A stretch of 64,000 nucleotides of DNA from Acidimicrobiales bacterium (GCA_035316325.1 DATHJB010000080.1:1-64000), one strand, 5' to 3'. Shown: positions 38,925 to 58,020, numbered from the stretch's first letter. Numbers and translations: made by a program. The notes: generated by a model from the letters alone, not told the origin.

Positions 38925-39692
38925 TTGCGCGTACTCGTGGTAGAACCCGATGCAGCTTCGGCGGAGACGCTGATCCGTGGACTCGAAAGGCACAACCACG
39001 ACGCCCAGAGCGTCGGGACGGGAGCCGACGCGCTGCGGGCCTACCACCGCGCCGACCTCCTGCTGCTCGACCTGGAGCTGCCCGACATCGACGGCCTCGA
39101 GGTCTGCCGGGGCGTCCGCAGCGCCTGCGACACGCCGATCATCGCCGTGACGAAGCGCGGCAGCGAGCTCGACCGGGTGCTCGGTCTCCAGGCCGGCGCC
39201 GACGACTACCTGGTGAAGCCGTACTGGTTCCGTGAGCTGATGGCCCGCATCGACGCGGTGATGCGCCGGGCGGCAGGGCCACGCACCGGCCACGCCGCCG
39301 GCCCGGTCGAGCGGGGCCCGCTGCACATCGACCCGGCCCGGCGCGAGGTGCGGCTCCGCGGCCACGTGGTCGGTCTCACCCGCAAGGAGTTCGACCTGCT
39401 CGGCCTCCTCGCCTCCCGGCCCGAGGCGGTGTTCTCCCGCCAGGAGCTGGCGCTGCGGGTGTGGGACGGCAACTGCACCGAGTCGAGCCGCACCATCGAC
39501 ACCCACGTCAGCAGCGTGCGCAACAAGCTGGGCTCCGGCACCTGGATCGTCACCGTCCGGGGCGTCGGCTTCCGCTTCGGCGAGGACCGCGCCGCCCTGG
39601 TCGACGACGACCCCCACGGCCCGACGCGACCGCTCGACGACATGGCCCGGCGGGCACATCGGCGGCGGGCGCCCATCGGCTCAGCGACGTGA
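38925..39692 (+). CDS. OmpR-family response regulator with altered acidic pocket
   Basis: 255 residues from the TTG at 38925, which has AGGGG 8 bp upstream. Receiver domain 1-115: phospho-acceptor Asp49 (LLLLDLELPDIDG), Thr76 and Lys98 (DDYLVKPYWF) are present, but the paired N-terminal acids read VVEPDA, so one acid is replaced by Pro8. C-terminal winged helix (about 135-225): LTRKEFDLLGLLASRPEAVF, SSRTIDTHVSSVRNKLG, TVRGVGFRFGE. No sensor kinase is nearby. Angucycline clusters are often run by such atypical OmpR-type activators (JadR1 type), so this is the likely cluster regulator. It converges on the hydroxylase gene with a 12-bp overlap. Confidence 0.88.
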   Translation: MRVLVVEPDAASAETLIRGLERHNHDAQSVGTGADALRAYHRADLLLLDLELPDIDGLEVCRGVRSACDTPIIAVTKRGSELDRVLGLQAGADDYLVKPYWFRELMARIDAVMRRAAGPRTGHAAGPVERGPLHIDPARREVRLRGHVVGLTRKEFDLLGLLASRPEAVFSRQELALRVWDGNCTESSRTIDTHVSSVRNKLGSGTWIVTVRGVGFRFGEDRAALVDDDPHGPTRPLDDMARRAHRRRAPIGSAT

Positions 39693-41138
39693 CCCGGCGA
39701 CGGCCGGGGCCCCGAACCAGCGGGTGAGCGCCGCCTCGAGGCCCGCGGCGTCGTCGCCGGAGCCGACCCAGGCCACGTGCCCGTCGGGGCGGACCAGCAC
39801 CAGGTCACCGGCGTCGAGGCCCGCCACGCCCAGCCCGGGCACCGCCCGGACCCGGTCGCCCCACGGCACGTCGGCGACGTCGACCCCGCACCCGAGAAGC
39901 AGGCCGTGGTGTCGGGTCGGATCCCACCAGCTGCAGGGCGGGAGGCGGGTGCCGACGAGCGGGTGGTCGTCCGGGTCGGCCGGGTAGCGGACGTCGACGC
40001 CGCTGACCACCGCAGCGAGCTGGTCGCGGGCGGCGGGCAGAGCGAGCAGCTCCCCCAGCACCGCCCGCAGCGGGTCGAGGTCCGCCGAGCCGAGCAGCAG
40101 CAGCTCCTGGGCCCGGACGTCGTCCTGCACCGCGGCGCCGACCGGGTGGCGCTCGTCGTGGTAGCTGTCGAGCAGGTCGAGTGCAGTCGAGCCCTGCACC
40201 ACCGCCGCCAGCTTCCAACCCAGGTTGAAGGCGTCGCCCAGCCCGCTGTTCAGCGCCTGGCCGCCGATCGGCATCTGCCGGTGGGCGGCGTCGCCGGCCA
40301 GCAGCACCCGGCCCCGCCGGTACTCGGCAGCCTTCCGGGTGACGTTGTCGAAGGCGTTCAGCCACCGGGGCGTGCCCGACGAGACGTCCTCGCCGGTGAC
40401 CCGCCTCCAGGCACCGGCCAGCTCCGCGAACGTCGGGTCGCGCCCGGCCGGGGCCCGGCCCGCCTCGTGGACCATCAACCGGGTCACGCCGTCGGGCCGC
40501 CGGGCGGCGATCGCGAGCCCGCCCGGCAGCCGCTCGAAGCGCCGGTTCGGTACGTCGATGCCCGCGACGTCGCCCCTCAGCAGCTCGCGGGTCGCGTCCG
40601 TACCGGGGAACGCGATCCCCGCGAGCCGCCGGACGGTGCTGTCCTGCCCGTCGCAGCCCACGAGGTACGAGCATCGGAGGGTGCTGGTCCCGTCCGGTGC
40701 CGTGACGGTCGCCGCGACGTGGTCGTCGTGCACCTCGAGGGCGACCAGCTCGTGGCGACGGCGGACGACAGCGCCGAGCTGCACCGCCCACGTTCCCAGC
40801 AGGGCCTCGGTGTCGGTCTGCGGCACCTTCCAATGACCGGCGTACGGGCTGGCCACGCCACCGACGGCGAGCGGCAGCCCCCCGAAGTGACCCACCTCCT
40901 CCCGGGGCGGCCTCACATTGGGCGCCCCGCCCAGCCGCTCCACCAGGCCCCGCTGGTCGAGGATCTCCATCGTGCGGGCGCTCAGCTGCGACGCCCGCGA
41001 CTCGTCGTGCGGCGAGGCCAGCCGCTCCACCACCACGACGTCGACGCCGCCCAGCCGCAGCTCGCCCGCCAGCAGCAGGCCGACCGGACCGGCCCCGACC
41101 ACGACGACGTCGGTCGTCAGCTGTCGCACGGAGCTCAC
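39681..41138 (-). CDS. FAD-dependent aromatic hydroxylase, PKS tailoring
   Basis: 485-residue class A flavin monooxygenase (PHBH fold): VVVVGAGPVGLLLAGELRLG (FAD), LVGCDGQDSTVRRLAG (DG motif), RVLLAGDAAHRQMPIGGQAL (GD motif), C-terminal thioredoxin-like part ending RWFGAP. It hydroxylates or rearranges the polyketide using NAD(P)H and oxygen. GTG start at 41138 overlaps the aromatase stop by 4 bp. Last gene of the minus-strand PKS operon and one of three paralogs in the cluster. Confidence 0.92.
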   Translation of the reverse strand: MSSVRQLTTDVVVVGAGPVGLLLAGELRLGGVDVVVVERLASPHDESRASQLSARTMEILDQRGLVERLGGAPNVRPPREEVGHFGGLPLAVGGVASPYAGHWKVPQTDTEALLGTWAVQLGAVVRRRHELVALEVHDDHVAATVTAPDGTSTLRCSYLVGCDGQDSTVRRLAGIAFPGTDATRELLRGDVAGIDVPNRRFERLPGGLAIAARRPDGVTRLMVHEAGRAPAGRDPTFAELAGAWRRVTGEDVSSGTPRWLNAFDNVTRKAAEYRRGRVLLAGDAAHRQMPIGGQALNSGLGDAFNLGWKLAAVVQGSTALDLLDSYHDERHPVGAAVQDDVRAQELLLLGSADLDPLRAVLGELLALPAARDQLAAVVSGVDVRYPADPDDHPLVGTRLPPCSWWDPTRHHGLLLGCGVDVADVPWGDRVRAVPGLGVAGLDAGDLVLVRPDGHVAWVGSGDDAAGLEAALTRWFGAPAVAGSRR

Positions 41139-42073
41139 CGCCGGCTCTCGGCGTACTCCTTGGCGTGGCCCAGCGTGGCGAGGCTGTTGCCGCTGAGCGC
41201 CTTGTGCACGAACTCCTTCGCCTCGGCGACCCCGGCGCCCTCGCCCAGCACCGCCGCCACGTTGGCCTCGTTGATCGCCACCGTGTGCCGCGACGCCGCG
41301 ACCACCCCGTCGTCGGTGTCGGTGAGCAGCCAGCGGCCGGTGTGCAGCGTCATCAGCGCCGGCACCACCACCTGCTTGTAGACGATCCTCGTGGACGGGA
41401 AGCACACCCGCACCGACTTGGTGGTGTGGGTCGACCCGTCCTTCGTCCTCGTGTCCATCTCCAGCACCTGCAGGCCGGGCGTCGGCTCGTCGAGCGCAAC
41501 CCGGCCCACGTGCGGCAGCCGCTCCTCCCAGCGGTCGGCCTCGTTGAGGAAGTCGTAGACGTCCTTCCCGGCCCCCGCGATCTCGACGGTGTCGTCGAAC
41601 GTGAGCACCAGGTCGCGGCGGCCGATCGCCAGCTCGGCGTTGGCCTTCAGCGCCGCCAGCTCCGAGGTGCTGTTGCGGTCGACGGCCTGGTCGATCCACT
41701 CCAGCTTGGCGGGGTCGTCGTCGACGGCGCGGTAGTCGTGCAGCAGCCGCACCCGCGCCACGTCCTCGGCCTGCGGCTCGACGATCCAGGTGCCGCCCAT
41801 CGCTCCGACGGGAGGGGTCGACACCTCCTGGCGGAACTCGATGCGGCGCTCGGCCGAGTCGAGCACCCGGCGCGACGTCCACGCCTTGGCCTCGCCGTTG
41901 GCGGTGGCCCAGATGCGGATGCGCTCACCGGTGTCGCTGCGCTCCAGCTGCTCGACGTGGATGGTGGGCGGGAACACCTGGGGCCAGTTGGTGACGTCCG
42001 CGATGAGGTCGTAGACCTGCGCCGCGGGGGCCTGCACGGTGATCCCGTGCTCGACGTTGCGGGTCTCGGGCAT
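41135..42073 (-). CDS. Two-domain aromatase/cyclase of type II PKS
   Basis: 312 residues with two START/SRPBCC domains: residues 1-150 (HGITVQAPAAQVYDLIADVT, NWPQVFPPTIHVEQLER) and 160-312 (TVEIAGAGKDVYDFLNEADR, WEERLPHVGRVALDEPTPGL). This didomain type (like ActVII or JadD) dehydrates and aromatises the first ring of C9-reduced polyketides. It fits the ketoreductase encoded just upstream, from which it is separated by a strong hairpin. Confidence 0.93.
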   Translation of the reverse strand: MPETRNVEHGITVQAPAAQVYDLIADVTNWPQVFPPTIHVEQLERSDTGERIRIWATANGEAKAWTSRRVLDSAERRIEFRQEVSTPPVGAMGGTWIVEPQAEDVARVRLLHDYRAVDDDPAKLEWIDQAVDRNSTSELAALKANAELAIGRRDLVLTFDDTVEIAGAGKDVYDFLNEADRWEERLPHVGRVALDEPTPGLQVLEMDTRTKDGSTHTTKSVRVCFPSTRIVYKQVVVPALMTLHTGRWLLTDTDDGVVAASRHTVAINEANVAAVLGEGAGVAEAKEFVHKALSGNSLATLGHAKEYAESRR

Positions 42074-42093
42074 GGTGGCTCCTCTCGTCTCGT

Positions 42094-42143: not shown

Positions 42144-42148
42144 CTGGT

Positions 42149-42925
42149 TCAGAAGTTGCCCAGGCCGCCGCAGACGTTGATCGCCTGCGAGGTGACCGAG
42201 GCCGCGGTGTCGGAGAGCAGGTAGCCGACCATGCCGGCCACCTCGTCGGGCGTGGAGTACCGGCCGAGCGGGATCTTGGCCTGGAACTGCTCGAGGATCT
42301 GGTCCTCGCTGGTCTCGTAGGCCGCGGCGTAGCCCTGCCGCACCCGCTGGGCCATGGGCGTCTCGACGTAGCCGGGGCAGACGGCGTTGACGGTGATGCC
42401 GGTCTTGGCCAGCTCGTTGCCGAGCGCCTTGGTGAAGCCGACCACGCCATGCTTCGACGCCGAGTACGGCGCCCCCAGCACCACACCCTGCTTGCCGGCT
42501 GTCGAGGCGATGTTGACGATGCGGCCCCACGGCAGCTCCCGCATCCCGCCGATCGACAGGACGTCGCGGCTCATGAGGAAGACGCTGTGGAGGTTGGTGG
42601 CGACCACGTCGAACCACAGGTCGTCGGCGATCTCGGCGGTCACCCCGCCGCCGCTGCGCCCGGCGTTGTTGACCAGGACGTCGACCGGTCCGTAGGTGTC
42701 GACCGCGGCCTCGACGAAGGCGCGCACCTGCTCGGGGTCGCGGACGTCGCAGGCCACGCCCTGGGCCTCGTGGCCGTCCTCGCGGAGCTCCTTGACGGTG
42801 AGGGCGACGTTGTCGGCGTCGCGGGCGCAGAGGAACACCTTGTTCCCCCCGGCGGCGACGAGCTGGGCCACGGCGCGGCCGATCCCGCTGGTGGCCCCGG
42901 TGACGAGTGCGACGTGTTGTGGCAT
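42149..42925 (-). CDS. Polyketide ketoreductase (SDR, ActIII-like)
   Basis: 258-residue short-chain dehydrogenase: cofactor motif VTGATSGIGRAVAQL, NNAGRSGGG (NNAG), catalytic Ser in IVNIASTAGK, YxxxK in PYSASKHGV, and the PGYVETPMA stretch of PKS ketoreductases. It reduces the C9 keto group of the nascent chain with NADPH. Lies between accC and the aromatase gene in the operon. Confidence 0.93.
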   Translation of the reverse strand: MPQHVALVTGATSGIGRAVAQLVAAGGNKVFLCARDADNVALTVKELREDGHEAQGVACDVRDPEQVRAFVEAAVDTYGPVDVLVNNAGRSGGGVTAEIADDLWFDVVATNLHSVFLMSRDVLSIGGMRELPWGRIVNIASTAGKQGVVLGAPYSASKHGVVGFTKALGNELAKTGITVNAVCPGYVETPMAQRVRQGYAAAYETSEDQILEQFQAKIPLGRYSTPDEVAGMVGYLLSDTAASVTSQAINVCGGLGNF

Positions 42926-42955
42926 GGCTCCTCCTGTGTGGGCAGGTCAGACGGG

Positions 42956-44338
42956 TCAGGCGGGTCGGGTGACTCGGTGGTTGCGGGCGCGGAGCACCTC
43001 GTCGACGATCGACGTGCTGTGCTCCCCGGCCCGGAAGGTCGGGTGGTGGACGACCTCGCGCAGGAAGTCGGTGGTGGTGCGGACGCCGGGGCCGCGCACC
43101 CGGAACTCGCCCAGGGCACGGTCCATGCGGTCAAGCGCCTGGTCGCGGTCGGGTGCCCAGACCACGAGCTTGGCGAGCAGCGAGTCGTAGGCGGCCGGCA
43201 CCCGGTAGCCGGTGAAGCCGTGGGTGTCGACCCGCACGAACGGCCCGCCGGCGGGGACGAACTCCTCGAGCACCCCCGGCGTCGGGGCGAAGTCGCGGTC
43301 GGGGTCCTCCACGTTGATGCGGCACTCGACGGCGGCACCCCGGAGGACCACGTCGTCCTGGGAGAGCTTCAGCGGCTCGCCGGCGGCGACGTGCAGCTGC
43401 TGGTGCACCAGGTCGACGCCGGTGGCCATCTCGGTGACCGGGTGCTCCACCTGGATCCGGCAGTTGACCTCCATGAAGTAGAACTCGCCCTCCGGGCCGA
43501 CCAGGAACTCGAACGTGCCGGCGCCCACGTAGCCGGCGGCCCGGGCGCCGTCGACGGCCACCTGCCCCATCTGCTGCACGATCCCGGGCGCCAGGCGGGG
43601 CGCCGGCGTCTCCTCCAGCAGCTTCTGGTGACGACGCTGGACCGAGCAGTCGCGCTCGCCCAGGTGCAGCACCGTGCCGTGGGTGTCGGCCAGCACCTGG
43701 ATCTCCACGTGGCGGGCGGTCTCCAGGTAGCGCTCGACATACACCCGGGGGTCGCCGAACAGGGCCTGCGCCCCCGCCCGGGTCTCCAGGTAGGCGTCGG
43801 GGAAGTCGGCGCTGCGCTGCACCATCCGCATGCCCCGACCGCCGCCGCCGGCCGCGGCCTTGATGATCACCGGGTAGCCGACCTCGTCGGCGGTGCGATG
43901 GGCCACGTCGACCGACCGCAGCGGCTCCAGGCTCCCCGGCAGCATCGGGAGGCCGGCCCGGGCCATCATCCGGCGGGCCACGGTCTTGTCGCCCAGCTGG
44001 GCGGTCACCTCGGGCGGCGGGCCGATGAGCACGATGTCGTTGTCGCGGCAGACCTCGGCGAAGTCCGGGTCCTCGGAGAGGAAGCCGTAGCCGGGGTGGA
44101 TGGCCTCCGCGCCGGTGCGGCGGGCCGTCTCCACGATGGCCGGGATGTTGAGGTAGCTGCGCTTGGCCGGGGCCGGGCCGATCTGCACCGACTCGTCGGC
44201 GTAGGCGACCACCGCCGAGTCGCGGTCCTCGGTGGAGTGGACCGCCACGGTGGAGATGCCCAGCTCCCGGCAGGCCCGGGCGACGCGCAGGGCGATCTCG
44301 CCCCGGTTGGCGATCAGGACCTTGCGGAACATGGTCAC
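42956..44338 (-). CDS. accC: Acetyl-CoA carboxylase, biotin carboxylase subunit
   Basis: 460-residue biotin carboxylase: KVLIANRGEIALRVARACRE, HPGYGFLSED, ATP-grasp loop IIKAAAGGGGRGMRMVQ, ERDCSVQRRHQKLLEE, EFYFMEVNCRIQVEHPVTEM and GAAVECRINVEDP. It carboxylates the biotin of the adjacent carrier protein. A dedicated carboxylase inside a polyketide cluster raises malonyl-CoA supply, as with JadJ. ATGA overlap with the carrier gene. Confidence 0.95.
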   Translation of the reverse strand: MTMFRKVLIANRGEIALRVARACRELGISTVAVHSTEDRDSAVVAYADESVQIGPAPAKRSYLNIPAIVETARRTGAEAIHPGYGFLSEDPDFAEVCRDNDIVLIGPPPEVTAQLGDKTVARRMMARAGLPMLPGSLEPLRSVDVAHRTADEVGYPVIIKAAAGGGGRGMRMVQRSADFPDAYLETRAGAQALFGDPRVYVERYLETARHVEIQVLADTHGTVLHLGERDCSVQRRHQKLLEETPAPRLAPGIVQQMGQVAVDGARAAGYVGAGTFEFLVGPEGEFYFMEVNCRIQVEHPVTEMATGVDLVHQQLHVAAGEPLKLSQDDVVLRGAAVECRINVEDPDRDFAPTPGVLEEFVPAGGPFVRVDTHGFTGYRVPAAYDSLLAKLVVWAPDRDQALDRMDRALGEFRVRGPGVRTTTDFLREVVHHPTFRAGEHSTSIVDEVLRARNHRVTRPA

Positions 44339-44826
44339 GTCCCGCCTGCGGCCGTCTCGCCGAGGGCGACGGCGAAGAGGCGGTCGCCGAACTCGACCGG
44401 GGCGCCGTCGTCGACCAGCACCTCGACGACGCAGCCGGCCGCGTCGGCCTCGACCGGGATCATCAGCTTCATCGCCTCGATGATCCCGACCTGCTGGCCC
44501 TTCACGACCGTGTCACCCACGTCGACGAACGGCGGGGCGCCGGGCTCGGGGGAGCGGTAGAAGACACCGACCGTGGAGGCCGTGAGGTAGGCACGGCCCG
44601 GTGGATCGGCCTCGGCGGGCCCCGCCGGGGCGGCGGTCGTGGCCACGTCCTGCTGCTCGGTGGCGACGATCGTCCCGGCGGGGCCCTCCGACGCCCACTC
44701 GAGCTCCACGGACACGTCCCCGGCCCGCACCCGCACGGCCCGCGGCCGCGACGGTGCCTGGGCGGCGAGCGCGAGGGCGCTCTCCTGCACCCGCTGCACC
44801 AGCGACGCCAGGGCCTCGTCGGTCAT
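44335..44826 (-). CDS. accB: Acetyl-CoA carboxylase biotin carboxyl carrier protein
   Basis: 163 residues: a helical N-terminal part, a linker rich in Ala/Pro, then the biotinyl domain with [20 protein letters not shown] and the biotinylation Lys120 in [12 protein letters not shown] overlaps both with accC (downstream) and accDA (upstream), giving a coupled carboxylase operon. Confidence 0.94.
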
Positions 44827-46505
44827 GCGACGGCCGAGGTGCCGAAGGCCCGGAACCGGGCGTGGCGGCGGGCGACGAGAGCCGGGGCATCCAACGCGGA
44901 CAACCGGTCGATCGCCGCCGCGATCGCGGCGTGGACCCGACGGGCCGCCAGGGCGTGGTCGGTCTGGCTGCCGCCCTCCGGCTCCCGGACCACGCCGTCG
45001 ACGATGCCGAGCCGCAGCAGCTGCCGGGCGTCGACCCGCAGCGCCGCCGCCGCGGTGGGCGCCATACCGGCGTCGTTCCACAGGATCGACGCGCAGCCCT
45101 CGGGGCTGATCACCGAGTAGACGCCGTTGGAGCAGATCAGCACCTCGTCGGCCACGGCCAGCGCCAGTGCGCCGCCGCTGCCGCCCTCGCCGGTCACCAG
45201 CGTCACCACCGGCACCGGGAGGCCGGCCATCAGCCGGATGCTCTCGGCGATGGCGAGGGCCTGCCCCCGCTCCTCGGCCTCGACGCCCGGGTGGGCGCCC
45301 GGCGTGTCGACGAAGGTGACGACGGGCAGGCCCAGCTTGGCAGCCAGCCGCATGAGCCGCGACGCCTTGCGGTAGCCGCCGGGGGCGGCCATCCCGAAGT
45401 TGCGGGCGCTCAGCTCGCCGATGGTGTGGCCCTTCTGGTGGCCCATCACCATCACCGGCCGGCCGTCGAGCCGGGCGACGCCGCCGACGATGGCGGGGCA
45501 GTCGTCGCCCACCCGGTCGCCCCGCAGCTCCTCGAAGTCGTCGAACACCCGGTTGACGAAGTCGAGGGTGGTGGGGCGGTCGATGTCGCGGGCCCGCTGC
45601 ACGGTCTTCCAGGCGTCGACGTCGGCCAGCTGGTCGGGGTCGCGCACCACGGCGTCGACGTCCCCGCCGCCCGGCGCCGCGGCGGCCACGGCGGGAGATG
45701 CAGTGGCCAGCAGCCGGGACAGGCAGGCGCGCAGGCCGCTGCGCTCGCGGATGATGTCGACCAGGCCGCGCTCGGCCAGGAACTCGGCGGTCTGGAACCC
45801 GGGCGGCAGCGTGCTGCGGATCGTCTGCTGGATCACCCGGGGGCCGGCGAAGCCGAGGCGGGCCCGGGGCTCGCACACGATCACGTCGCACAGCGTCGAG
45901 AACGACGCCGCCACGCCCCCGTACGTGGGGTCGGTGACCAGCGAGATCGTGAGGATGCCGGCGTCGCCGAGCTGGCCGATCGCCTGGCTGGTCTTCGCCA
46001 TCTGCATCAGCGAGATGGCGCCCTCCTGCATGCGGGCGCCACCCGACGCCGACACGATCAGCAGCGGCGTCCGCTCGGCGAGGGCGTGCTCGGCGGCCCG
46101 GGTGATGGCCTCGCCGACGGCGGCACCGAGCGACCCGCCGAGGAACCGGAAGTCCATCACCGCGCACACGACGGGGTGCCCGTCGACGGCGCCGCGGGCG
46201 ATCACCACCCCCTCCTCCAGCCCGGTGGCGGCGCGGGCCTCGGCCAGGCGCACGGTGTAGGGCTTGGTGTCGGTGAAGCCGAGCACGTCGACGCTGCGGC
46301 CCGACACGTCGAGCTCCTGCGGCGCCTCGTCGAGCAGCTGCTCCAGCCGCTGGTGGGCGGTGAGCCGGTGGTGCTCGCCGCAGTCCGGGCAGACGTGCAG
46401 GTTGCGGGCCAGGCGCTTGGCGTAGATCATCCCCCGGCAGCCGGGGCACACCACCCAGTCGGTGTCCTCCGGGGCACCGGTGCCCCGCGTCATCGTGACG
46501 GCCAC
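44823..46505 (-). CDS. accDA: Acetyl-CoA carboxylase carboxyltransferase, fused beta-alpha subunits
   Basis: 560-residue fusion. The N-terminal zinc ribbon has Cys20, 23, 39 and 42 ([18 protein letters not shown]) and the beta domain has [26 protein letters not shown]. From about residue 290 the alpha domain follows: [82 protein letters not shown]. It transfers the carboxyl from biotin to acetyl-CoA. Zinc-ribbon fusion is typical of actinobacterial secondary-metabolite carboxylases. Confidence 0.94.
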
Positions 46506-46514: not shown

Positions 46515-46769
46515 CTAGGCGTTCGCCAGCGCGAGCAGCTCGCGTGGCGTCCGGGCGGCGGTGGTGGCGTCGTCGTCGAGCTCGACGCCGTACTCGTGGG
46601 TGATCTGCGCGGCGGTCTCCAGGAGCGCCAGCGAGTCGTAGCCGAGCAGCTCGAACTCGGTGTCGAGGATGTCGGCGTCGAGGTCGACGCCCTCCTCCTC
46701 GCCGGCGCACTCCCGCAGGATGCGGCGCAGGTCGTCGAGCGTGATCTGTTGAATGCGTTGGTCGGTCAT
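46515..46769 (-). CDS. Type II PKS acyl carrier protein
   Basis: 84 residues, acidic, with the phosphopantetheine Ser46 in LLGYDSLALLETAAQI, normal for PKS carriers. It holds the growing chain for the ketosynthase pair. Lies 42 bp downstream of the chain-length factor gene, the standard KS-CLF-ACP order. Confidence 0.95.
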   Translation of the reverse strand: MTDQRIQQITLDDLRRILRECAGEEEGVDLDADILDTEFELLGYDSLALLETAAQITHEYGVELDDDATTAARTPRELLALANA

Positions 46770-46811: not shown

Positions 46812-48023
46812 TCAGTCGGCGGAGCGGACGACCACGGCGGCGTTGAACCCGCCCTGGCCGCGGGCGACGACGAGCGCGGTCCGCACCGGCAGCGGGCGGG
46901 GTTCGCCCACCACCAGGTCGAGCCCGTAGTCGGGCACGGGGGTGACGTTGATCGTCGGGGGGACGACGCCGTCGCGGATCGCCAGCAGGGCGGCCACCAC
47001 GTCGAGGGGCGCGGCACCGGACGTCAGTCGCCCGGTCATGGTCTTGGGGGCGGTGACGGGGACGCCGCCCGGGCCGAACAGGCCGGCGAGGGCGTCGGCC
47101 TCCACCCGGTCGAGGTCGGGGAGGCCGGCGGCGTCGGCGAACACCACGTCGACGTCGGCCGGGGCGACGCCGGCGTCGTCGAGCGCCAGCCGCAGCGCCC
47201 GCGCCAGTCCGGACGGCCCGCGCTTGCCGGGGGCCGGGTCGAAGGTGGCGCCGTAGCCGGCCAGCTCGCCGTAGACCCGGGGTGCGCCCCGCTCGCGGGC
47301 CGAGCCGGCGTCCTCCAGGATCAGCAGGGCGCCGCCCTCGGCGGGCACGTGGCCCCGGGCGTCGGCGTCGAACGGCAGGTAGGCGTGGTCGGGGTCGTCG
47401 CTGGTGCTGAGCCGGCCGCCGGCGATCTCGCCCACCCAGCCCCACGGGCAGACGTTGGCGTCGACGCCGCCGGACACGATCAGCCGGCTGTCCTTGCGGA
47501 TGAGCCGCCGGGCCTGGGCCAGCGCGTCGAGCCCGCCGGCGCCGTCGCCCACCAGCACGCCGCTGGGGCCGCGCATGCCGTGGCGGATCGAGATCTGCCC
47601 GGTGTTCACGGCGTAGAACCAGGCGAACGACTGGTAGGCGCTCACGTGCTGGCTGCCCTTGCTCCACAGGTTCTGCAGCTCGCCCTGGCCGAACTCGAAG
47701 CCGCCCGCCGAGCTGGCGGTGACCACGCCCATGTCGAACTCGGGCAGGTCCTCGGGCCGCACGCCCGCGTCGGCCAACGCCCAGTCGGCGGCGACCAGCG
47801 CCAGCCGGGTCACGTGGTCGGTCTGGGGGATGAGCCGGCTGGGCAGGTGGTCGCGGGGCGCGAAGTCGGGCACCTCGCCGGCGAGGCGCACCGGGTACGG
47901 CGTCGGGTCGAAGCGGGTCACCCGACCGATGCCGTTGCGTCCGTGGCAGGTCGCGTCCCACCAGTCGTCGGTGCCGAGCCCGTTGGGCGCGGTCACCCCC
48001 ACGCCCGTCACGACCACCGTCAT
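46812..48023 (-). CDS. Type II PKS chain-length factor (KS beta)
   Basis: 403-residue partner of the ketosynthase. Same thiolase fold ([64 protein letters not shown]). The nucleophile Cys is absent: the site reads [14 protein letters not shown], with Gly161 where chain-length factors usually carry Gln. ATG at 48023 chosen for the ATGA overlap with the ketosynthase stop; the longer frame upstream is repeat DNA. It sets chain length; the product length is not predictable here. Confidence 0.94.
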
Positions 48024-49384: not shown

Positions 49385-49713
49385 GTGGGTTCAGCCCTCC
49401 AGTGGTAGAAGCGGGTGGCCATGGCGTCGGCCGGGCTGCGCCAGGTGGCGGGGTCGTAGGCGTCGATGTGCGCCTTCAACGCCTCGCTGATGCCGACGAA
49501 GAGCGGGTGGGTCCGGGTCGCCTGGATGGTCTCGCCACCGTCGTCGGTGTCGAAGTCCTGCAGGTGGAAGTAGAGGCCCTGGTAGTGGAAGAGCTGGCGC
49601 CGCCGGGTGCCCATCACGTCGGGCATCTCGGTGGCGTCGAACTCGGCGAAGAGCTTGGCGACGTCGTCGGCCGAGCCGGGCTGCATGCGGGCGACGATGA
49701 GCGTGCTGTGCAT
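49381..49713 (-). CDS. TcmI/JadI-family polyketide cyclase
   Basis: 110-residue dimeric ferredoxin-like cyclase (polyketide synthesis cyclase family): [74 protein letters not shown]. This family closes later rings, including the fourth ring in angucyclines (JadI, UrdF, LanF). ATG at 49713; the longer frame to 49905 is a shadow of the upstream hydroxylase. ATGA overlap with the ketosynthase start. Confidence 0.93.
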
Positions 49714-49714: not shown

Positions 49715-51190
49715 TCAGGCTCCTTCCGCCGGGCCGAACCAGCGGGTGAGGGCGTCGGTGAGGCTCCCGGCGTCGGGCCCGTCGGGCGCCAGCCAGGCGA
49801 CGTAGCCGTCGGGCCGCACCAGCAGGGCGTCGAGCGGCGACTCGCAGTCGTGCTGGCGGGCGGCCACGGTGTCGACGCGGCCGACCCAGGGAGCGGCGGC
49901 GGCACGCAGCTCGGGATCGTCGACCAGGTCGAGCAGCACCCCGCGCCCGGCGTGGAGGAGCTCGTAGTTGGAGGTCTTCTCGTCGCCCACCACCAGGTCC
50001 TGGTTCGGCAGGCGGTAGCCGAGCAGCGGGTGGTCGCCGGGGCCGACGTCGTAGCGGATGTCGAGCCCGCTGACCATGCCCACGAGCTGCCGCTTCACGT
50101 CGTCCTGGACCATCAGCTCGGTGAAGACGTCGCGCAGCGGCTGCATCTCCTCGCCGGTGAGGTAGAGCGAGCCCTGGGCCTGGGAGTTGGTGAGCACCTG
50201 GGCGCCGACGGGGTGGCGCTCGCGGTGGTAGGTGTCGAGCAGCCCGGGCGGGGCGTGGCCGTGGATCTCGGCGGCCAGCTTCCAGCCCAGGTTGGCGGCG
50301 TCCTGCACGCCGACGCTGAGGCCCTGGCCGCCGGCGGGCAGGTGGACGTGGGCGGCGTCGCCCGCCAGGAGCACTCGCCCCCGGCGGTACTCGCTCGCCT
50401 GGCGGGCGGTGTCGCCGAAGGCGCTGACCCAGAGAGCCGACCCGCCGTGGATGTCCTCGCCGGTGAGGCGCTCCCAGGCGTCGGCCAGCTCGTCGTAGCT
50501 CAGGCCGTCGGACCGGTTGCGCGGCGGCGTGCCGATCTCGCAGACGATGATGCGGTCGACGCCGTCGCCCAGCGGCGCGGCCATCACCATCCCGCCCGGC
50601 ACCCGTTCGCCGGTGAAGCGGGGCCGCAGGTCCTGGCCCACGACGTCGGCCAGGTACATCTCGCGGGTGGCGTCGGTGCCGGGGAAGTCGATGCCGGCGA
50701 GGCGGCGGATCGTGCTGCGGCCGCCGTCGCAGCCGACCAGCCAGCGGGCCCGGAGGCTGCTCCGACCGTCGGGCGTCTCGACGGCGATCTCGACCCGCTC
50801 GCCGTCGTCGGCGATCCCGACCACCTCGTGCCGGCGGCGGATCTCGGTGCCGAGCTCGGTGGCCCAGTCGTGCAGCACCGCCTCGGTGACCGACTGGGGC
50901 ACGCCCCGGGCGCCGAAGTGGCCGCCCTCGACCACCGAGTAGTCGAGCGGGAGGCCGCCGAAGTGGCCCATCGGGCTGGTTTCCAGCTCACCGAAGCGGG
51001 GCAGGAGGCCCCGTTGGTCGAAGACCTCCATGGCCCGGGCGGTGAAGCCGAGGCCGCGTGACTGGCCGGTCGGTGCGGCGAGGCGTTCGACCGCGATCGT
51101 CGCCACTCCGGCGAGGCGGAGCTCCCCCGCCAGCATCAGCCCGGTCGGCCCCGCTCCTACGACGATGACGTCTGCATCCAGCGTGTCCAT
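49715..51190 (-). CDS. FAD-dependent aromatic hydroxylase, PKS tailoring (operon leader)
   Basis: 491-residue class A flavin monooxygenase: DVIVVGAGPTGLMLAGELRL, QSRGLGFTARAMEVFDQRGL, WLVGCDGGRSTIRRLAGIDF, RVLLAGDAAHVHLPAGGQGL, ending RWFGP. ATG at 51190 with leader GTCGAAAGAGGGCAAATGG. First gene of the minus-strand PKS operon. Its promoter and leader closely match those of the plus-strand paralog at 53408, pointing to a duplication that kept shared regulation. Confidence 0.93.
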   Translation of the reverse strand: MDTLDADVIVVGAGPTGLMLAGELRLAGVATIAVERLAAPTGQSRGLGFTARAMEVFDQRGLLPRFGELETSPMGHFGGLPLDYSVVEGGHFGARGVPQSVTEAVLHDWATELGTEIRRRHEVVGIADDGERVEIAVETPDGRSSLRARWLVGCDGGRSTIRRLAGIDFPGTDATREMYLADVVGQDLRPRFTGERVPGGMVMAAPLGDGVDRIIVCEIGTPPRNRSDGLSYDELADAWERLTGEDIHGGSALWVSAFGDTARQASEYRRGRVLLAGDAAHVHLPAGGQGLSVGVQDAANLGWKLAAEIHGHAPPGLLDTYHRERHPVGAQVLTNSQAQGSLYLTGEEMQPLRDVFTELMVQDDVKRQLVGMVSGLDIRYDVGPGDHPLLGYRLPNQDLVVGDEKTSNYELLHAGRGVLLDLVDDPELRAAAAPWVGRVDTVAARQHDCESPLDALLVRPDGYVAWLAPDGPDAGSLTDALTRWFGPAEGA

Positions 51191-51388: not shown

Positions 51389-52888
51389 ATGACGTCCCCC
51401 GACACGGTCGACCTGACCGACCCGTCCGCCTCCCCGTCGGCGCCACCCACGGCCGCCCGCAGCTCGGGCCTGATCCTGGCGTTCCTGTGCGTCGCCCAGT
51501 TCATGGTCTTCCTCGACGTGTCGATCGTGAACGTCGCCCTGCCGTCGATCCAGCGCAGCCTCGGCTTCGCCGAGTCCGACCTGCAGTACATCGTCACCGC
51601 CTACGGCACCGTGCTCGGCGGGTTCCTCCTGCTCGGCGGGCGCCTGGCCGACACCCTCGGGCGCCGGCGCCTGCTCCAGACGGGCCTCGTGGTGTTCGCC
51701 GGAACCTCGCTGATCGCCGGCCTGGCGCAGGACGACACCGTGCTCATCGTGGCCCGCGGCTTCCAGGGGCTCGGCTCGGCGCTCATCGCCCCCGCCGCCC
51801 TCAGCACGCTGACCACGGTGTTCCGGGAGGGCGCCGAGCGCAACAAGGCGCTGGGCATCTGGGGGTCGCTGGCCGGCATCGCCTCGGTCTGCGGCGTGCT
51901 CTTCGGCGGGCTGCTCACCGAGGGCCCGGGCTGGCGCTGGATCTTCTTCATCAACGTGCCGATCGGCCTGGTCGCCGCGGTGCTGGCGCCCTCGGTGCTG
52001 CCGGAGAGCCGTGACGAATCGCGCCGCGGCAACTTCGACTTCCTTGGCGCCGGGCTGCTCACCGGCGGCCTGCTGCTGCTCATCTACACGATCAACGAGG
52101 CCGTCAACGTGGGCTGGGACACCAACCGGACCATCGGCAGCCTCGTCGCCGCCGGCGTCCTGCTGGTGACGTTCGTGCTGGTCGAGCTGCGGGCCCGCTC
52201 CCCGCTCATGCCGCTCGGCATCTTCCGGCGCTCCACCCTGCGCACCGCCAACATCGCCACCCTGTTCCTGTTCGGGTCGACGGTCACGCTGTTCTTCTTC
52301 GCCAGCCTCTACATGCAGCAGGTTCTCGACTACTCGGCGCTCGAGACGGGCCTCGCCTACCTGCCGCTGGCGATCGTCGTGTCGGTCGGTGCCGGTGTCG
52401 CCTCCGGCCTGGTCACCAAGGTGGCGGCCAAGCCCGTGCTGGCCACCGGCCTGCTGCTCAGCGCCACCGGGCTGCTGATGCTGTCCCAGGTCCCCACCGA
52501 CGCCGACTACCTGCAGCACCTGCTGCCGGCCTTCCTGGTGGTCGGGGCGGGGCTGGGGCTGTCGTTCGTCCCGCTGCAGATCGCCGCCTTCGTGGGGGTC
52601 GAGGAGCGCGAGTCGGGCCTGGCCGCGGGCCTCATCAACACCAGCCAGGAGACCGGCGGGGCGCTGGGTGTGGCGATCGTGTCGACCATCGCCTTCACCC
52701 GCATCGACGACCTGATGGCCAAGGCCGGGGGCGATCCCGCCGCCCTGATCCCCGCCCAGGCGAGCGGATTCCACCAGGCGTTCTTCGTCGGCGCCTGCTT
52801 CGCCGCCGCCTCGCTGGCCCTCGCGGTGGCGCTGCTGCCGTGGATGGGCGCCGAGCAGCGGGCCGAGTCGCCTGCGGTCGCGGCGTAG
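51389..52888 (+). CDS. MFS exporter, DHA2 family (PKS cluster)
   Basis: 499-residue 14-segment antiporter: MVFLDVSIVNVALPSIQRSL, GGRLADTLGRRRLLQTGLVV (motif A), ARGFQGLGSALIAPAALSTL, WRWIFFINVPIGLVAAVLAP. Most similar in type to polyketide drug exporters of actinomycetes; probable product export and self-resistance. Divergent from the PKS operon and followed after 10 bp by the F420-type gene. Confidence 0.93.
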   Translation: MTSPDTVDLTDPSASPSAPPTAARSSGLILAFLCVAQFMVFLDVSIVNVALPSIQRSLGFAESDLQYIVTAYGTVLGGFLLLGGRLADTLGRRRLLQTGLVVFAGTSLIAGLAQDDTVLIVARGFQGLGSALIAPAALSTLTTVFREGAERNKALGIWGSLAGIASVCGVLFGGLLTEGPGWRWIFFINVPIGLVAAVLAPSVLPESRDESRRGNFDFLGAGLLTGGLLLLIYTINEAVNVGWDTNRTIGSLVAAGVLLVTFVLVELRARSPLMPLGIFRRSTLRTANIATLFLFGSTVTLFFFASLYMQQVLDYSALETGLAYLPLAIVVSVGAGVASGLVTKVAAKPVLATGLLLSATGLLMLSQVPTDADYLQHLLPAFLVVGAGLGLSFVPLQIAAFVGVEERESGLAAGLINTSQETGGALGVAIVSTIAFTRIDDLMAKAGGDPAALIPAQASGFHQAFFVGACFAAASLALAVALLPWMGAEQRAESPAVAA

Positions 52889-52898: not shown

Positions 52899-53309
52899 AT
52901 GTCCCGCCAACCCACCCGACCCGCCCTGTCCCCCTCGCCCGAGGCCGAAGCGTTCCTGCAGGAGCGGCACCTGGGCACGATCACCACCTTCCGGCCCGAC
53001 GGCTCGCCCCACGTGGTGGCGGTGCGCTTCACGTGGGACCCGTCGTCCGGCCTCGCCCGGGTGATGACCGTCGCGTCGTCGCGGAAGGCCCGCAACCTGG
53101 TGGCGCAGCCAGGCAGCCGGGCCGCCGTCTGCCAGGTGGCCGGGAACCGCTGGATCACCCTCGAGGGCCCGGCCGTGGTGTCCGACGACCCGTCGCGCGA
53201 CGCCGCCGGGGCCCGGGCGTACGCCGAGCGCTACTGGTCGCCGCCCCCGGCGCTGCCCAACCGGGTGGTGGTCGAGATCGCGGTCGACCGGGTGATGGGA
53301 CTGTTCTGA
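52899..53309 (+). CDS. F420-type split-barrel flavin/deazaflavin oxidoreductase (FDOR)
   Basis: 136-residue PNPOx-like split barrel of the actinobacterial F420-binding group: FLQERHLGTITTFRPDGSPH, VVAVRFTWDP, SSRKARNLVAQPGSRAAVCQ, WITLEGPAVVSDDP, VVVEIAVDRVMGLF. It may reduce a ring of the polyketide, as F420 enzymes do in tetracycline-type pathways, or act as a general protective reductase. Between the exporter and a hydroxylase gene on one strand. Confidence 0.85.
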   Translation: MSRQPTRPALSPSPEAEAFLQERHLGTITTFRPDGSPHVVAVRFTWDPSSGLARVMTVASSRKARNLVAQPGSRAAVCQVAGNRWITLEGPAVVSDDPSRDAAGARAYAERYWSPPPALPNRVVVEIAVDRVMGLF

Positions 53310-53407: not shown

Positions 53408-54880
53408 ATGGAACAGCTGGATGCTGACGTAATCGTCGTAGGTGCCGGGCCGACGGGGCTGATGCTCGCCGGTGAGCTGCGGCTGGCCGGCGTGACGGCG
53501 ATCGTCGTCGACCGGCTCACCGAGCCGATGCAGCAGTCGCGGGCGCTGGGGTTCTCGGCCCGCACGATCGAGGAGTTCGACCAGCGGGGCCTGCTGACCC
53601 GCTTCCCCGAGTTCGACACCATCCCCATCGGCCACTTCGGCGGCCTCCCCATCGACTACCGGATCGTCGAAGGCGGCTCGTACGGGGCACGGGGTGTGCC
53701 GCAGTCGCTCACCGAGGCGATCCTGGCCGGGTGGGCCGCCGGCCTGGGCGCCGAGGTCCGCCGGGGCCGGGAGGTCACCGGCATCGAGGTGGGCGACGAC
53801 CACGTCGAGCTCGCCGTGGCGACGCCCGACGGTCCCCAGACGCTCCGGGCCGGCTGGCTGGTCGGCTGCGACGGTGGGCGCAGCGTCGTGCGCAAGCAGG
53901 CCGGCATCGACTTCCCCGGCACCGATCCCGTGATCGAGATGTGGCTGGCCGACGTGCGCGGCGTGCCGCTGCGGCCCCGCTTCGCCGGCGAGCGGGTGCC
54001 GGGCGGGATGGTGATGGTGCTGCCGATGGGCCCGGAGATCAGCCGGGTGGTGGTCTACGAGCGGGCCACCGGGCTGCGCGGCACCAGCGAGCCGCCCACC
54101 TTCCCCGAGGTGGCCGCGGCCTGGGAGCGCCTCACCGGCGAGGACATCCACGGGGCCACCCCGCTCTGGGTCAGCTTCTTCACCGACTCGAGCCGGCAGG
54201 CCGCCGAGTACCGCCGGGGACGGGTGTTCCTGGCCGGCGATGCCGCCCACGTCCACCTGCCGATCGGCGGCCAGGGCATGAGCGCCGGGGTGCAGGACGC
54301 CGTCAACCTGGCGTGGAAGCTCGCCGCCGAGATCCACGGGTACGCGCCGCCGGGCCTGCTCGACAGTTACCACACCGAACGTCACCCGGCAGGGGCCCGG
54401 GTGGTGGCCAACACCCTGGCCCAGCGGATCGTGTACCTGGGCAGCGACGAGATGGATCCCCTGCGGCTCGTCCTGGGGGAGCTCCTGGAGCACGACGACG
54501 TCAAGCGCCACCTCGTGGGCATGGTGACCGGCCTCGACATCCGCTTCGACGTCGGCCCTGGCACGCATCCTCTGCTCGGACGCCGCCTGCCCGATGTCGG
54601 CCTGGTGGTCGACGGCGCCGAGAAGTCGTCGGTGTACGAGCTGCTGCACCTGGCCCGGGGCGTGCTGCTCGACCTGCGCGACGACGCCGACCTGCGCTTC
54701 GCCGCCGCGCCGTGGGCCGACCGGGTCGACACCGTCACCGCGGCCCTCACCGACGACGGCACCGTGCTCGACGGGGTCGACGCCGTGCTGGTGCGACCGG
54801 ACGGCTACGTCGCCTGGATCGCCCCCGACGAGGAGGGCGCCGAGGTCACCGACGCCCTCGCCCACTGGTTCGGCCCTTAA
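53408..54880 (+). CDS. FAD-dependent aromatic hydroxylase, PKS tailoring
   Basis: 490-residue class A flavin monooxygenase, close paralog of the one at 49715: DVIVVGAGPTGLMLAGELRL, QSRALGFSARTIEEFDQRGL, WLVGCDGGRSVVRKQAGIDF, RVFLAGDAAHVHLPIGGQGM, ending HWFGP. Clusters for angucyclines typically need two such enzymes for C12 oxidation and B-ring or C2/C3 changes. Its stop abuts the inverted-repeat element at 54881. Confidence 0.93.
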   Translation: MEQLDADVIVVGAGPTGLMLAGELRLAGVTAIVVDRLTEPMQQSRALGFSARTIEEFDQRGLLTRFPEFDTIPIGHFGGLPIDYRIVEGGSYGARGVPQSLTEAILAGWAAGLGAEVRRGREVTGIEVGDDHVELAVATPDGPQTLRAGWLVGCDGGRSVVRKQAGIDFPGTDPVIEMWLADVRGVPLRPRFAGERVPGGMVMVLPMGPEISRVVVYERATGLRGTSEPPTFPEVAAAWERLTGEDIHGATPLWVSFFTDSSRQAAEYRRGRVFLAGDAAHVHLPIGGQGMSAGVQDAVNLAWKLAAEIHGYAPPGLLDSYHTERHPAGARVVANTLAQRIVYLGSDEMDPLRLVLGELLEHDDVKRHLVGMVTGLDIRFDVGPGTHPLLGRRLPDVGLVVDGAEKSSVYELLHLARGVLLDLRDDADLRFAAAPWADRVDTVTAALTDDGTVLDGVDAVLVRPDGYVAWIAPDEEGAEVTDALAHWFGP

Positions 54881-55041
54881 GGGCGTGTCCTGTGGATCCG
54901 GTGTGCGGATCTCCGAGTCAGGGGCGTCGCTCGGCGTGCCGGGACGACGCAGGAACCCACCAGGGTTTCAATGTCGGCACGGTGCGGCGAGCGGCGTCAT
55001 CTGGCCGGAGAGACGTGCGCCATGATCCGCAGGACACGCCC
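54881..55041. mobile_element. Candidate MITE: ~161 bp with 18-bp terminal inverted repeats
   Basis: Left end GGGCGTGTCCTGTGGATC (54881-54898), right end GATCCGCAGGACACGCCC (55024-55041): 17 of 18 bases complementary. The interior encodes no transposase. It fills most of the gap between the hydroxylase stop and the ABM gene. No clear target duplication is visible, so the age or class is uncertain; a large-loop hairpin is the alternative. Confidence 0.65.
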
Positions 55042-55084
55042 TCCATCACCGCGAATCCCCGACGGACAGCTGGAGGAGAACCAC

Positions 55085-55807
55085 ATGCCCACCATCTCTG
55101 CCGAGGACGGCTACCTCACCGTCCTCAACCTGTTCCTGACCGACACCCCCGAGCGGCAGGGCCACCTGCTGGGGGCGATGCGCGACATCGTCGACACCGC
55201 GGCGTTCCCCGGCTGGATCTCCAGCACCGTGCACAGCGGCCAGCAGCGGCTCGGCACCGCCAACTTCATCCAGTGGCGCAGCCAGGAGGACCTCGAGGCC
55301 CGCTACTCCGAGGACGTCTTCAAGCACCGCACGATGCCGCTGTTCACCGAGATCACCACGTCGATCCGGCTGCTGCAGACCCGGTGCGCCGCCACCTACC
55401 GGCGTTCCGACCAGGGCGACGTCACCGAGATCTCGCCCACCCGTGACGACTACGCGGCCATCGAGATCTTCCAGGTGCCCGACGACGGACACGAGGAGTT
55501 GGTCGCCACGCTGGTCGACGCCGAGGGCTGGCTGCCGGACACCCCGGGCTGGCGGACGCACACCGTGCTGCAGGGCATCGGGGCCCGGAACCTCGACGGC
55601 GCCTTCGTCGTGAGCTACTCGCAGTGGGACGACAAGGACTCCTACGACGCCTACCGGGCACTGCCCGAGGCCGACCAACCGGTGGCGATGCAGAAGGCCC
55701 GGTCCCGGATCGAGGCGCTGCCGACCAGCACGTTCTGGAACACCTACCGGGTCGTCCACACCCGTTCGGCCGGCCAGCAGTCGGTCAGCGCGGCGTCGCT
55801 GGCGTGA
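55085..55807 (+). CDS. Two-domain ABM-type monooxygenase
   Basis: 240 residues with two ferredoxin-like antibiotic-biosynthesis-monooxygenase halves: about 1-110 (LTVLNLFLTDTPERQGHLLG, GWISSTVHSGQQRLGTANFI, QWRSQEDLEAR) and 118-225 (YAAIEIFQVPDDGHEELVAT, GWRTHTVLQGIGARNLDGAF, SQWDDKDSYDAY). Such enzymes oxidise aromatic polyketides without cofactor (ActVA-Orf6, JadG type). ATG at 55085 preceded by GGAGGAG; an upstream in-frame extension lies in the candidate mobile element. Confidence 0.9.
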   Translation: MPTISAEDGYLTVLNLFLTDTPERQGHLLGAMRDIVDTAAFPGWISSTVHSGQQRLGTANFIQWRSQEDLEARYSEDVFKHRTMPLFTEITTSIRLLQTRCAATYRRSDQGDVTEISPTRDDYAAIEIFQVPDDGHEELVATLVDAEGWLPDTPGWRTHTVLQGIGARNLDGAFVVSYSQWDDKDSYDAYRALPEADQPVAMQKARSRIEALPTSTFWNTYRVVHTRSAGQQSVSAASLA

Positions 55808-55849
55808 CCTGAGCGACGTCGGCCGCACCGCCACCGTCACCACCTTCGC

Positions 55850-56449
55850 CTAGCCGGGCGGTGGCGGTAGGCCCGAGGCGAGGTGGACGAAGACCTCGTC
55901 GATGAGGACGGCGAGGCCCGACGGGTCGTCGTGGCCCTGCCAGATCGACATCGCGACGCGGGTGGCGGCCAGGGCGGCGCCGACGACCGTCGCCGGGTAG
56001 GTGTCGCGCTCCGGGTCGAGGCCGAGGCGCCGGCCGACCTCCTCCACCAGGTCCCGCTCGGTCTCCGCCAGGCGGGCGGCGTAGCGGCTGGCCAGGCCCG
56101 GGTGGTCCTGCACCAGCCGGCGGCGGATCGTCCAGCGGTCGGGGTCCTCCTGCAGGCGCTCCACCGACGCCTGCAGCGCCTGTCGCAGCGCCTCGAGGGG
56201 CGGCTCGTCGGCAGGCCGGGCGTGGAGGTACTCGGCGACGGGTGGCCGCAGCGCCGGCGACATGCCGATGATGGCGTCCTCCTTCGACGAGAAGTAGTTG
56301 AAGAAGGTGCGGGGCGACACACCGGCGGCCTCGGCGATCGCCTCGACCGACACCTTGTCGACGCCGTGGCGGCCGGCCAGCCGGAGGGCGGCGTCCTGCA
56401 GCGCCGCCCGGGTCTCCGCCTTCTTCCGCTCCCGGAGTCCGTTGCTCAT
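55850..56449 (-). CDS. TetR family regulator (exporter repressor)
   Basis: 199 residues: RAALQDAALRLAGRHGVDKV, SVEAIAEAAGVSPRTFFNYF, SSKEDAI; long acidic C-terminal ligand domain. ATG at 56449 overlaps the exporter stop (ATGA), so it is co-transcribed with the MFS gene and likely represses it until the polyketide binds. Convergent with the ABM gene. Confidence 0.92.
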   Translation of the reverse strand: MSNGLRERKKAETRAALQDAALRLAGRHGVDKVSVEAIAEAAGVSPRTFFNYFSSKEDAIIGMSPALRPPVAEYLHARPADEPPLEALRQALQASVERLQEDPDRWTIRRRLVQDHPGLASRYAARLAETERDLVEEVGRRLGLDPERDTYPATVVGAALAATRVAMSIWQGHDDPSGLAVLIDEVFVHLASGLPPPPG

Positions 56450-58020
56450 TCGTGGACAAGGCTGCCATGCCGGGCATCGCCGGAGGCGGTTCGCAACGGC
56501 GTCTCCCGCAGGAGCCACGACAGCGCGAAGCCGGCGACGATGACGGGGACGGAGAGCAGGAACACGCCGGGGATGGCGTCGGCGAAGGCGGAGGCGAGCT
56601 GCGCCTGCTCGGCCGCCGGCAGCTCCCGCATCTGCTCGGGCGTCAGGCCCAGCGCCGAGGCATCGCCCAGGAGGTTGGTCAGCCGGGCGCTGACCATCGA
56701 CCCGAACACCGCGACGCCCACGGAGCCCCCGACGGAACGGAAGAAGTTGACGGTCGACGTGGCGACGCCGAGGTCCTCCAGCGGCGCCTCGTTCTGGCTG
56801 GAGACGATCAGGACCTGCATCACCAGACCGATCCCGATGCCGACCACCACCATGTAGCTGGCCGACTGCAGGCGGGAGCTGTCGACGCCGAGCGTGGACA
56901 GCAGGAACATGCCGAGGCTGGCGACCGCCATGCCGGCGATGGGGAAGGCGCGGTAGCGGCCGGTGCGGCTGACCACCTGCCCGACCACCATCGAGGCGCT
57001 GATCAGCCCGATCATCAGCGGCACGAGCAGCAGGCCCGAGTTGCTGGCGGACGCCCCGTTGGCGACCTGCAGGAACGTGGGCAGGTAGGTCGTGGCGCCG
57101 AACATGGGGATGCCGACCACGAAGCTGAGCGCACAGGCGACGCTGACCGTGCGCAGGCGGAACAGGCGCAGCGGCAGCGCCGGCTCGGCGACCCGGCGCT
57201 CGACGAAGATCAGCGCCGCGACCAGCACGATCACGCCGGCGCCCAGCCCCAGGATCGTGGGAGAGAGCCACCCGTAGTCGTTGCCGCCCCACGTCGTGAG
57301 CAGCACGAGGGCGGTGATCGCCGCCGACAGGAGGGCGGTGCCGGCCCAGTCGATCGTGACGTTCCGGCGACGGCTGTTGGCGGGCAGGGTGGCGCTCGTG
57401 ACCAGCAGGGCGACGATGCCGACCGGCACGTTCACGTAGAACACCCAGCGCCACGACAGGTGGTCGGTGAAGAAGCCGCCGAGCAGGGGGCCGATGACGG
57501 TGGCCATGCCGAAGACGGCGCCGAAGTAGCCCTGGTAGCGGCCGCGCTCCCGGGGGCTGACGACGTCCGCGATGATCGCCTGCGCCAGCACGATGAGCCC
57601 GCCGGCGCCCATGCCCTGCACGGCGCGGAAGACGATCAGCTGCCCGATCGTCCCGGCCACCCCGCAGAGGACGCTGCCGACGAGGAAGACTGTGATGGCG
57701 ATCTGGAACAGGGTCTTGCGCCCGAAGAGGTCGCCGAACTTGCCGTACAGCGGGGTGACGACGGTCTGCGCCAGCAGGTAGGAGGTGACGACCCAGGACA
57801 GCCGGTCGAGTCCCCCGAGGTCGCCGACGATGGTGGGCAGCGCGGTGGCGACGATGGTGGCGTCGAGCGCGGCGAGCATCATCCCGAGCATCAGCCCGGA
57901 GAACACCAGCAGCACCCGCCGGTGCTCGAGCTGGCGCTCCTGTGCCCCGTCCGCTCCCTCCGCTGCGAGTACCTCGCCGTCGGTCGACTCCAGGGTCACG
58001 CTGCTCTCGGTCGCCGTCAT
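56446..58020 (-). CDS. MFS exporter, DHA2 family (second in PKS cluster)
   Basis: 524 residues from ATG 58020: cytoplasmic lead, then LAALDATIVATALPTIVGDL, GKFGDLFGRKTLFQIAITVF (motif A), FRAVQGMGAGGLIVLAQAII, WRWVFYVNVPVGIVALLV and about 14 membrane segments. EmrB/LfrA-like multidrug exporter co-transcribed with the TetR gene; probable self-resistance. The upstream ATG at 58038 is an alternative start but lies in the probable operator. Confidence 0.93.
   Translation of the reverse strand: MTATESSVTLESTDGEVLAAEGADGAQERQLEHRRVLLVFSGLMLGMMLAALDATIVATALPTIVGDLGGLDRLSWVVTSYLLAQTVVTPLYGKFGDLFGRKTLFQIAITVFLVGSVLCGVAGTIGQLIVFRAVQGMGAGGLIVLAQAIIADVVSPRERGRYQGYFGAVFGMATVIGPLLGGFFTDHLSWRWVFYVNVPVGIVALLVTSATLPANSRRRNVTIDWAGTALLSAAITALVLLTTWGGNDYGWLSPTILGLGAGVIVLVAALIFVERRVAEPALPLRLFRLRTVSVACALSFVVGIPMFGATTYLPTFLQVANGASASNSGLLLVPLMIGLISASMVVGQVVSRTGRYRAFPIAGMAVASLGMFLLSTLGVDSSRLQSASYMVVVGIGIGLVMQVLIVSSQNEAPLEDLGVATSTVNFFRSVGGSVGVAVFGSMVSARLTNLLGDASALGLTPEQMRELPAAEQAQLASAFADAIPGVFLLSVPVIVAGFALSWLLRETPLRTASGDARHGSLVHE

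Follow-up and report, generated by a model that had tools for sequence, protein, structure and literature searches.

A complete angucycline-type gene cluster in an Acidimicrobiia genome with a probable benzofluorene aglycone as its product

A 64,000-nucleotide stretch from an Acidimicrobiales bacterium (GCA_035316325.1 DATHJB010000080.1:1-64000), called the window below, carries an angucycline-type type II polyketide cluster between positions 38925 and 58020 (Table 1). Genes were modelled from third-position GC and start sites, and families were assigned with Pfam and NCBIfam profiles. All reading frames of the cluster are uninterrupted. Every part listed by an initial annotation of this DNA, its three class A FAD hydroxylases among them, was recovered intact in or near this interval, and both ends that it gave are plausible start codons. 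Of its two DHA2 exporters, both were confirmed as major facilitator superfamily (MFS) exporters and at least one as the DHA2 type. The main operon lies on the minus strand and is transcribed in the order FAD2 (a FAD-dependent hydroxylase), PF04673 cyclase, ketosynthase (KS), chain length factor (CLF), acyl carrier protein (ACP), AccDA, AccB, AccC, ketoreductase (KR), didomain aromatase and FAD1 (a further FAD oxygenase); many of these genes overlap their neighbours by a few bases. Divergent from this operon is a plus-strand group that encodes the exporter MFS1, a PPOX-class flavoprotein, a third FAD oxygenase (FAD3) and a tandem antibiotic biosynthesis monooxygenase (ABM). The left end is formed by an OmpR regulator, which has no kinase gene beside it, and the right end by a TetR regulator and the second exporter.

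Table 1. Genes of the cluster, with positions in the window. Percentages are protein identities; numbers beginning with L denote loci used for comparison.
Gene product	Position	Strand	Evidence
OmpR/JadR1-type response regulator	38925..39692	+	PF00072 and PF00486; 53-62% to regulators of angucycline loci L010, L015, L016, L071, L185
FAD1, BexE/PgaE-family FAD oxygenase, after aromatase (JadF-like position)	39681..41138	-	PF01494; best PDB match 4X4J (BexE); ~50-56% to FAD1 of angucycline loci
Didomain aromatase/cyclase	41135..42073	-	PF10604 in two stretches; ~59-69% in angucycline loci
Polyketide (C9) ketoreductase, ActIII-like	42149..42925	-	PF00106; 73-77% in most angucycline loci
AccC biotin carboxylase	42956..44338	-	PF00289/PF02786/PF02785; 72% to Pseudonocardia L185
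AccB biotin carboxyl carrier	44335..44826	-	PF00364; EAMKL biotin site; 58% to L185
AccDA fused carboxyltransferase (beta and alpha)	44823..46505	-	PF17848, PF01039, PF03255; TIGR00515 and TIGR00513 above cut-off; 66% to L185
ACP	46515..46769	-	PF00550; DSL serine motif
CLF (KS-beta)	46812..48023	-	PF00109/PF02801; up to 73% in angucycline clade; 11-residue motif as in angucycline clade
KS (KS-alpha)	48020..49384	-	PF00109/PF02801; active site TGCTSG; 86% to S. exfoliatus, 82% to Amycolatopsis
TcmI/JadI-type cyclase	49381..49713	-	PF04673; 70-79% in most angucycline loci
FAD2, CabE/PgaE/FlsO1-family hydroxylase, proposed prejadomycin oxygenase	49715..51190	-	PF01494; best matches CabE/FlsO1/PgaE; sister of FlsO1/AlpK clade, support 94
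MFS exporter 1	51389..52888	+	PF07690; 59% to exporter adjoining PPOX/FAD3 block in L176
PPOX-class flavoprotein, proposed flavin/quinone reductase partner	52899..53309	+	TIGR03618; 65% to fluostatin-locus homolog in L016
FAD3, putative FlsO1/AlpK-type C-5 hydroxylase	53408..54880	+	Best PDB matches FlsO1 (7VWP), then AlpK (6J0Z); FlsO1 clade, support 100
Tandem ABM oxygenase, putative AlpJ/FlsG-type ring-B-cleaving enzyme	55085..55807	+	PF03992; full-length alignment with 5F9P ('anthrone oxidase-like'); 54-61% to ABM homologs of loci that carry FAD3-type genes
TetR/MftR-like repressor, probably of exporter	55850..56431	-	PF00440 and PF17754
MFS DHA2 exporter 2	56446..58020	-	TIGR00711 above cut-off; OtrB/Tcr3-like

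When about 85,000 bacterial and archaeal species were scanned with the KS, identities reached 86%, with the top matches in Streptomyces exfoliatus, Amycolatopsis, other Streptomyces, Actinoplanes and Micromonospora. In a tree of concatenated KS and CLF sequences from 65 loci, the window is nested among loci with angucycline gene sets (support 0.996), in a clade with L009-L018, L020, L021, L053, L067, L071 and L176. The angucycline-type core proposed initially was thus placed in its own clade and in no other; a spore-pigment or pentangular-type KS is ruled out by the tree, where pentangular-type loci lie far away. The canonical order FAD2-cyclase-KS-CLF-ACP-KR-aromatase-FAD1 is retained, including the KR, the didomain aromatase and the PF04673 cyclase. 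Loci of the angucycline clade share this order, but in most of them no carboxylase trio separates ACP from KR. An extra short-chain dehydrogenase/reductase (SDR) gene, seen after FAD1 in many ordinary angucycline loci, is missing both in the window and in fluostatin-like loci. No gene for a ketosynthase III, a starter acyltransferase, a glycosyltransferase or sugar biosynthesis lies between 38.9 and 58.0 kb; together with the clade of the core, this supports the earlier suggestion of an acetate-primed decaketide and an aglycone. At about position 47540 the CLF has Gly where Gln or Glu is normal, as in L018, L179, L022, L040, L049 and L055. The position is variable, and the Gly was rejected as a special trait.

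The AccDA-AccB-AccC trio of the window sits between ACP and KR. It had been compared with JadJ, but the locus comparison rules out a JadJ-type carboxylase: the enzyme is of another type, with three separate proteins. In the usual angucycline loci AccC is distant (~50%) and carboxyltransferase matches lie at 25-34%; separate trios occur chiefly in type II clusters of other kinds. A plasmid search revealed an exception, pBCI1-2 of the ant-associated Pseudonocardia sp. EC080619-01 (L185), whose core order, the position of the trio included, is identical to that of the window. The insertion is therefore not unique to the window. L185 is the closest core relative and pairs with the window at ultrafast bootstrap (UFBoot) values of 99 in the core tree and 100 in the acetyl-CoA carboxylase tree. 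Unlike the window, L185 carries deoxysugar genes, apparent glycosyltransferase genes and a FAD1-SDR fusion, and it lacks ABM, PPOX and FAD3. The window cluster is therefore a mosaic, assembled from known parts and found in an unexpected host. Pseudonocardones are known from ant-associated Pseudonocardia and are a conceivable product of the pBCI1-2 cluster.

The two-domain ABM protein matches PDB 5F9P, which we do not claim to be AlpJ, over its full length and has 54-61% identity to the ABM proteins of L016, L018, L020, L176, L178 and L179. By sequence it is assigned to the AlpJ/JadG/GilOII family of tandem oxygenases. ABM, FAD3 and PPOX co-occur in L016, L018, L020, L176 and L179, whereas most angucycline-type loci are without them; FAD3 adjoins ABM in the window, as it does in L016, L018, L020, L178 and L179. 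In the fluostatin (fls) locus of Micromonospora rosaria (L016), FAD3 matches the crystallised FlsO1 almost residue for residue. The window FAD3 falls with this protein and its relatives in the FlsO1/AlpK clade. Oxygenases of the AlpJ family are reported to open dehydrorabelomycin/CR1 at ring B, after which AlpJ and Flu17 give a ring-contracted benzofluorene, and AlpK and FlsO1 have been assigned as benzofluorene C-5 hydroxylases (PMC9474520, PMC11181247). Because relatives of the ABM and FAD3 proteins are reported to make and C-5-hydroxylate benzofluorene, we infer a benzofluorene-type product. The angucycline class named in the initial annotation holds, but not jadomycin as the nearest system: the closest tailoring set is that of fluostatin/kinamycin (FlsG/AlpJ plus FlsO1/AlpK), and the product is therefore probably ring-B-cleaved and not an ordinary angucycline.

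The fluostatin locus has the core order of the window and carries ABM, FAD3 and PPOX together (FAD3 68%, ABM 54%, PPOX 65%, OmpR 60%, KS 81%). It differs in its AccDA match of only 25%, which indicates another carboxylase type, and in its FAD2, which falls in another clade. The jadomycin (jad) cluster resembles the window in its enzyme families, a JadG-family oxygenase and a regulator of the OmpR type among them, and has the gene order JadF-G-H. Set against jad as it is generally known, the window differs by its separate AccC/AccB/AccDA trio, its FlsO1-type FAD3, an ABM gene placed with FAD3 and not beside FAD1, and the lack of sugar genes; neither a JadJ-type carboxylase nor the JadF-G-H order was found in the window.

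With the kinamycin (alp) cluster and the related diazofluorene-type locus L178 the window has an AlpJ-type ABM, an AlpK-type FAD3 and core enzymes in common. L178, on a plasmid of Streptomyces sp. NBC_00704, combines angucycline-type tailoring with diazo-pathway-like genes and gave no KS/CLF match between its cyclase and ACP. Unlike the window, it has a set of methyltransferase, glutamine-synthetase-like, amidase, lyase and GNAT genes. No diazo or hydrazine marker gene was found in the window cluster, and two proteins of the L178 set had no match in the window genome, although at 97% completeness the assembly could have missed them. The glutamylhydrazine/diazo genes and AlpH-like protein typical of diazofluorene (kinamycin/lomaiviticin) pathways were likewise not detected. 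The M. rosaria genome encodes a homolog (56%) of the AlpH-like diazo-pathway protein, in contrast to the window genome, and the methyltransferase of the L178 set matches the genomes of L016, L018 and L020.

The host RpoB has 83% identity to that of an Acidimicrobiaceae metagenome-assembled genome (L061) compared with 64-69% to Actinomycetia genomes, and we therefore place the host in Acidimicrobiia and not in Streptomyces. The gene at 58116-59831, next to the cluster, has its closest matches (58-62%) within the order of the host; both results agree with the initial impression that the neighbouring genes are not Streptomyces-like. Tetranucleotide patterns correlate at r = 0.94 with the host versus 0.83 with Streptomyces, and cluster and flanks give r of 0.92-0.95 against the host. 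We surveyed an even draw of 395 of the genomes of the class, the window genome included. Among these, a KS above 45% identity or an ABM match at E 1e-10 occurred only in the window genome, and none of the papers searched dealt with angucyclines in Acidimicrobiia. The close relatives of the cluster found in named genomes are all from Actinomycetia, and its history is likely an old horizontal transfer from that class. The same distribution, with none of these relatives in the 394 other class genomes searched, could also mean that the cluster-bearing contig (C80) is an actinomycete contaminant of the assembly. We regard this as very improbable: the base composition of cluster and flanks and the gene directly beside the cluster disfavour it, the contig is 99.8 kb long and the contamination estimate is 1.65%. 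L061 carries a different type II polyketide synthase (PKS; KS 61%, CLF 50%), far from the angucyclines in the tree; type II PKS genes are therefore not new to the class.

The reading that we consider probable is a complete, horizontally acquired atypical-angucycline cluster in Acidimicrobiia, with a benzo[b]fluorene(one) aglycone as expected product. The sequence data show which genes are present, in what order, to which clades they belong and the class of the host; every chemical step is inferred. AccC, AccB and AccDA would provide malonyl-CoA, from which KS, CLF and ACP would build an acetate-primed decaketide. The KR, didomain aromatase and PF04673 cyclase would fold this into an angular tetracycle (UWM6/prejadomycin level), to be hydroxylated by FAD2, with FAD1, to CR1/dehydrorabelomycin. 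The AlpJ/FlsG-type ABM oxygenase is predicted to cleave and contract ring B, while the PPOX flavoprotein possibly supplies reduced flavin or keeps the substrate reduced. FAD3, the FlsO1/AlpK ortholog, would then hydroxylate C-5 to give an aglycone of the hydroquinone-kinobscurinone type. The MFS pumps may export it, under control of the TetR and OmpR proteins.

Several points weigh against a benzofluorene end product made in this way. FAD2 lies outside the JadH/FlsO2-type clade, as sister to the FlsO1/AlpK clade (UFBoot 94), and its role as prejadomycin oxygenase is therefore less secure. It is still a reasonable assignment because FlsO1 itself is able to convert prejadomycin (PMC9474520). FAD1 is BexE/PgaE-like and occupies the position of JadF, and its part in the hydroxylation is tentative. 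The ABM tree (eight sequences, support 0.5, no authenticated JadG or GilOII) leaves AlpJ/FlsG-type and L177-type proteins unseparated. As there is no AlpH-like partner gene, the intermediate might end as dimers or another skeleton. Finally, the host is represented only by a 244-contig assembly.

Two other products were considered. In an ordinary angucycline(one) cluster of the rabelomycin or tetrangulol type, the ABM protein would merely oxidise ring C to the quinone and leave the ring system intact. Core order and KS/CLF are indeed those of typical angucyclines, and ABM proteins include quinone-forming anthrone oxygenases, among which ActVA-Orf6 is a weak match to the window protein. We think this unlikely, given a tandem ABM that matches 5F9P end to end and, among the loci compared, is found only with FAD3-type or other atypical sets, a FAD3 that groups as an FlsO1/AlpK ortholog, and the missing SDR after FAD1. 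Ring B might instead be cleaved and the intermediate trapped by an amine or closed to a lactone, as in jadomycin or gilvocarcin/WS-5995. AlpJ, JadG and GilOII form one enzyme family, and all routes share one aldehyde-acid intermediate (PMC11181247). However, the window has the fluostatin-type FAD3-ABM pair. In L177, where FAD3 is missing and the genes run FAD1-ABM-FAD2, the ABM is less similar to that of the window (46% versus 54-61%). The window cluster contains no methyltransferase or GilM/GilR-like gene. Such a product appears quite improbable to us.

Angucyclines are a large class of aromatic antibiotics, and the presence in Acidimicrobiia of a ring-B-cleaving cluster that is complete and apparently intact suggests transfer across classes, followed by residence long enough to acquire host composition. 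With AlpJ- and AlpK-type enzymes present and diazo genes undetected, the cluster offers a natural way to see which product the oxidative core gives without hydrazine. FAD2 bears on the origin of the FlsO1/AlpK oxygenases. As a tentative extension, which we hold to be somewhat doubtful, this may be the first pathway that is both diazo-free and dedicated to a benzofluorene, in a class not known to make angucyclines: an early-branching mosaic in which one ancestral oxygenase type, to judge from the sister position of FAD2, could serve both the prejadomycin and the C-5 steps, with malonyl-CoA supplied by the carboxylase and the pathway truly ending at a new aglycone.

To the right, the cluster is followed by a 3'-5' exonuclease/DNA polymerase gene, and the genes to its left are unrelated; Rfam and tRNA scans gave no match. 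An SNF2-type helicase gene in the window (30512-32794) has its best relatives in other families of the phylum and not in its own order; with matches so scattered, it was uninformative as a host marker. A siderophore-like (NIS) group at 13993-22316 comprises a diaminobutyrate aminotransferase, an N-monooxygenase and two IucA/IucC-type synthetase-like genes. The gene at 24817-25692 encodes a cutinase/BHET-hydrolase-like protein (NF051441, 352 bits, under the 520-bit cut-off). The host genome, at 6.4 Mb, is the largest among the class genomes listed, and its contigs C96, C195, C61 and C36 carry large modular type I PKS frames of up to 4249 amino acids.

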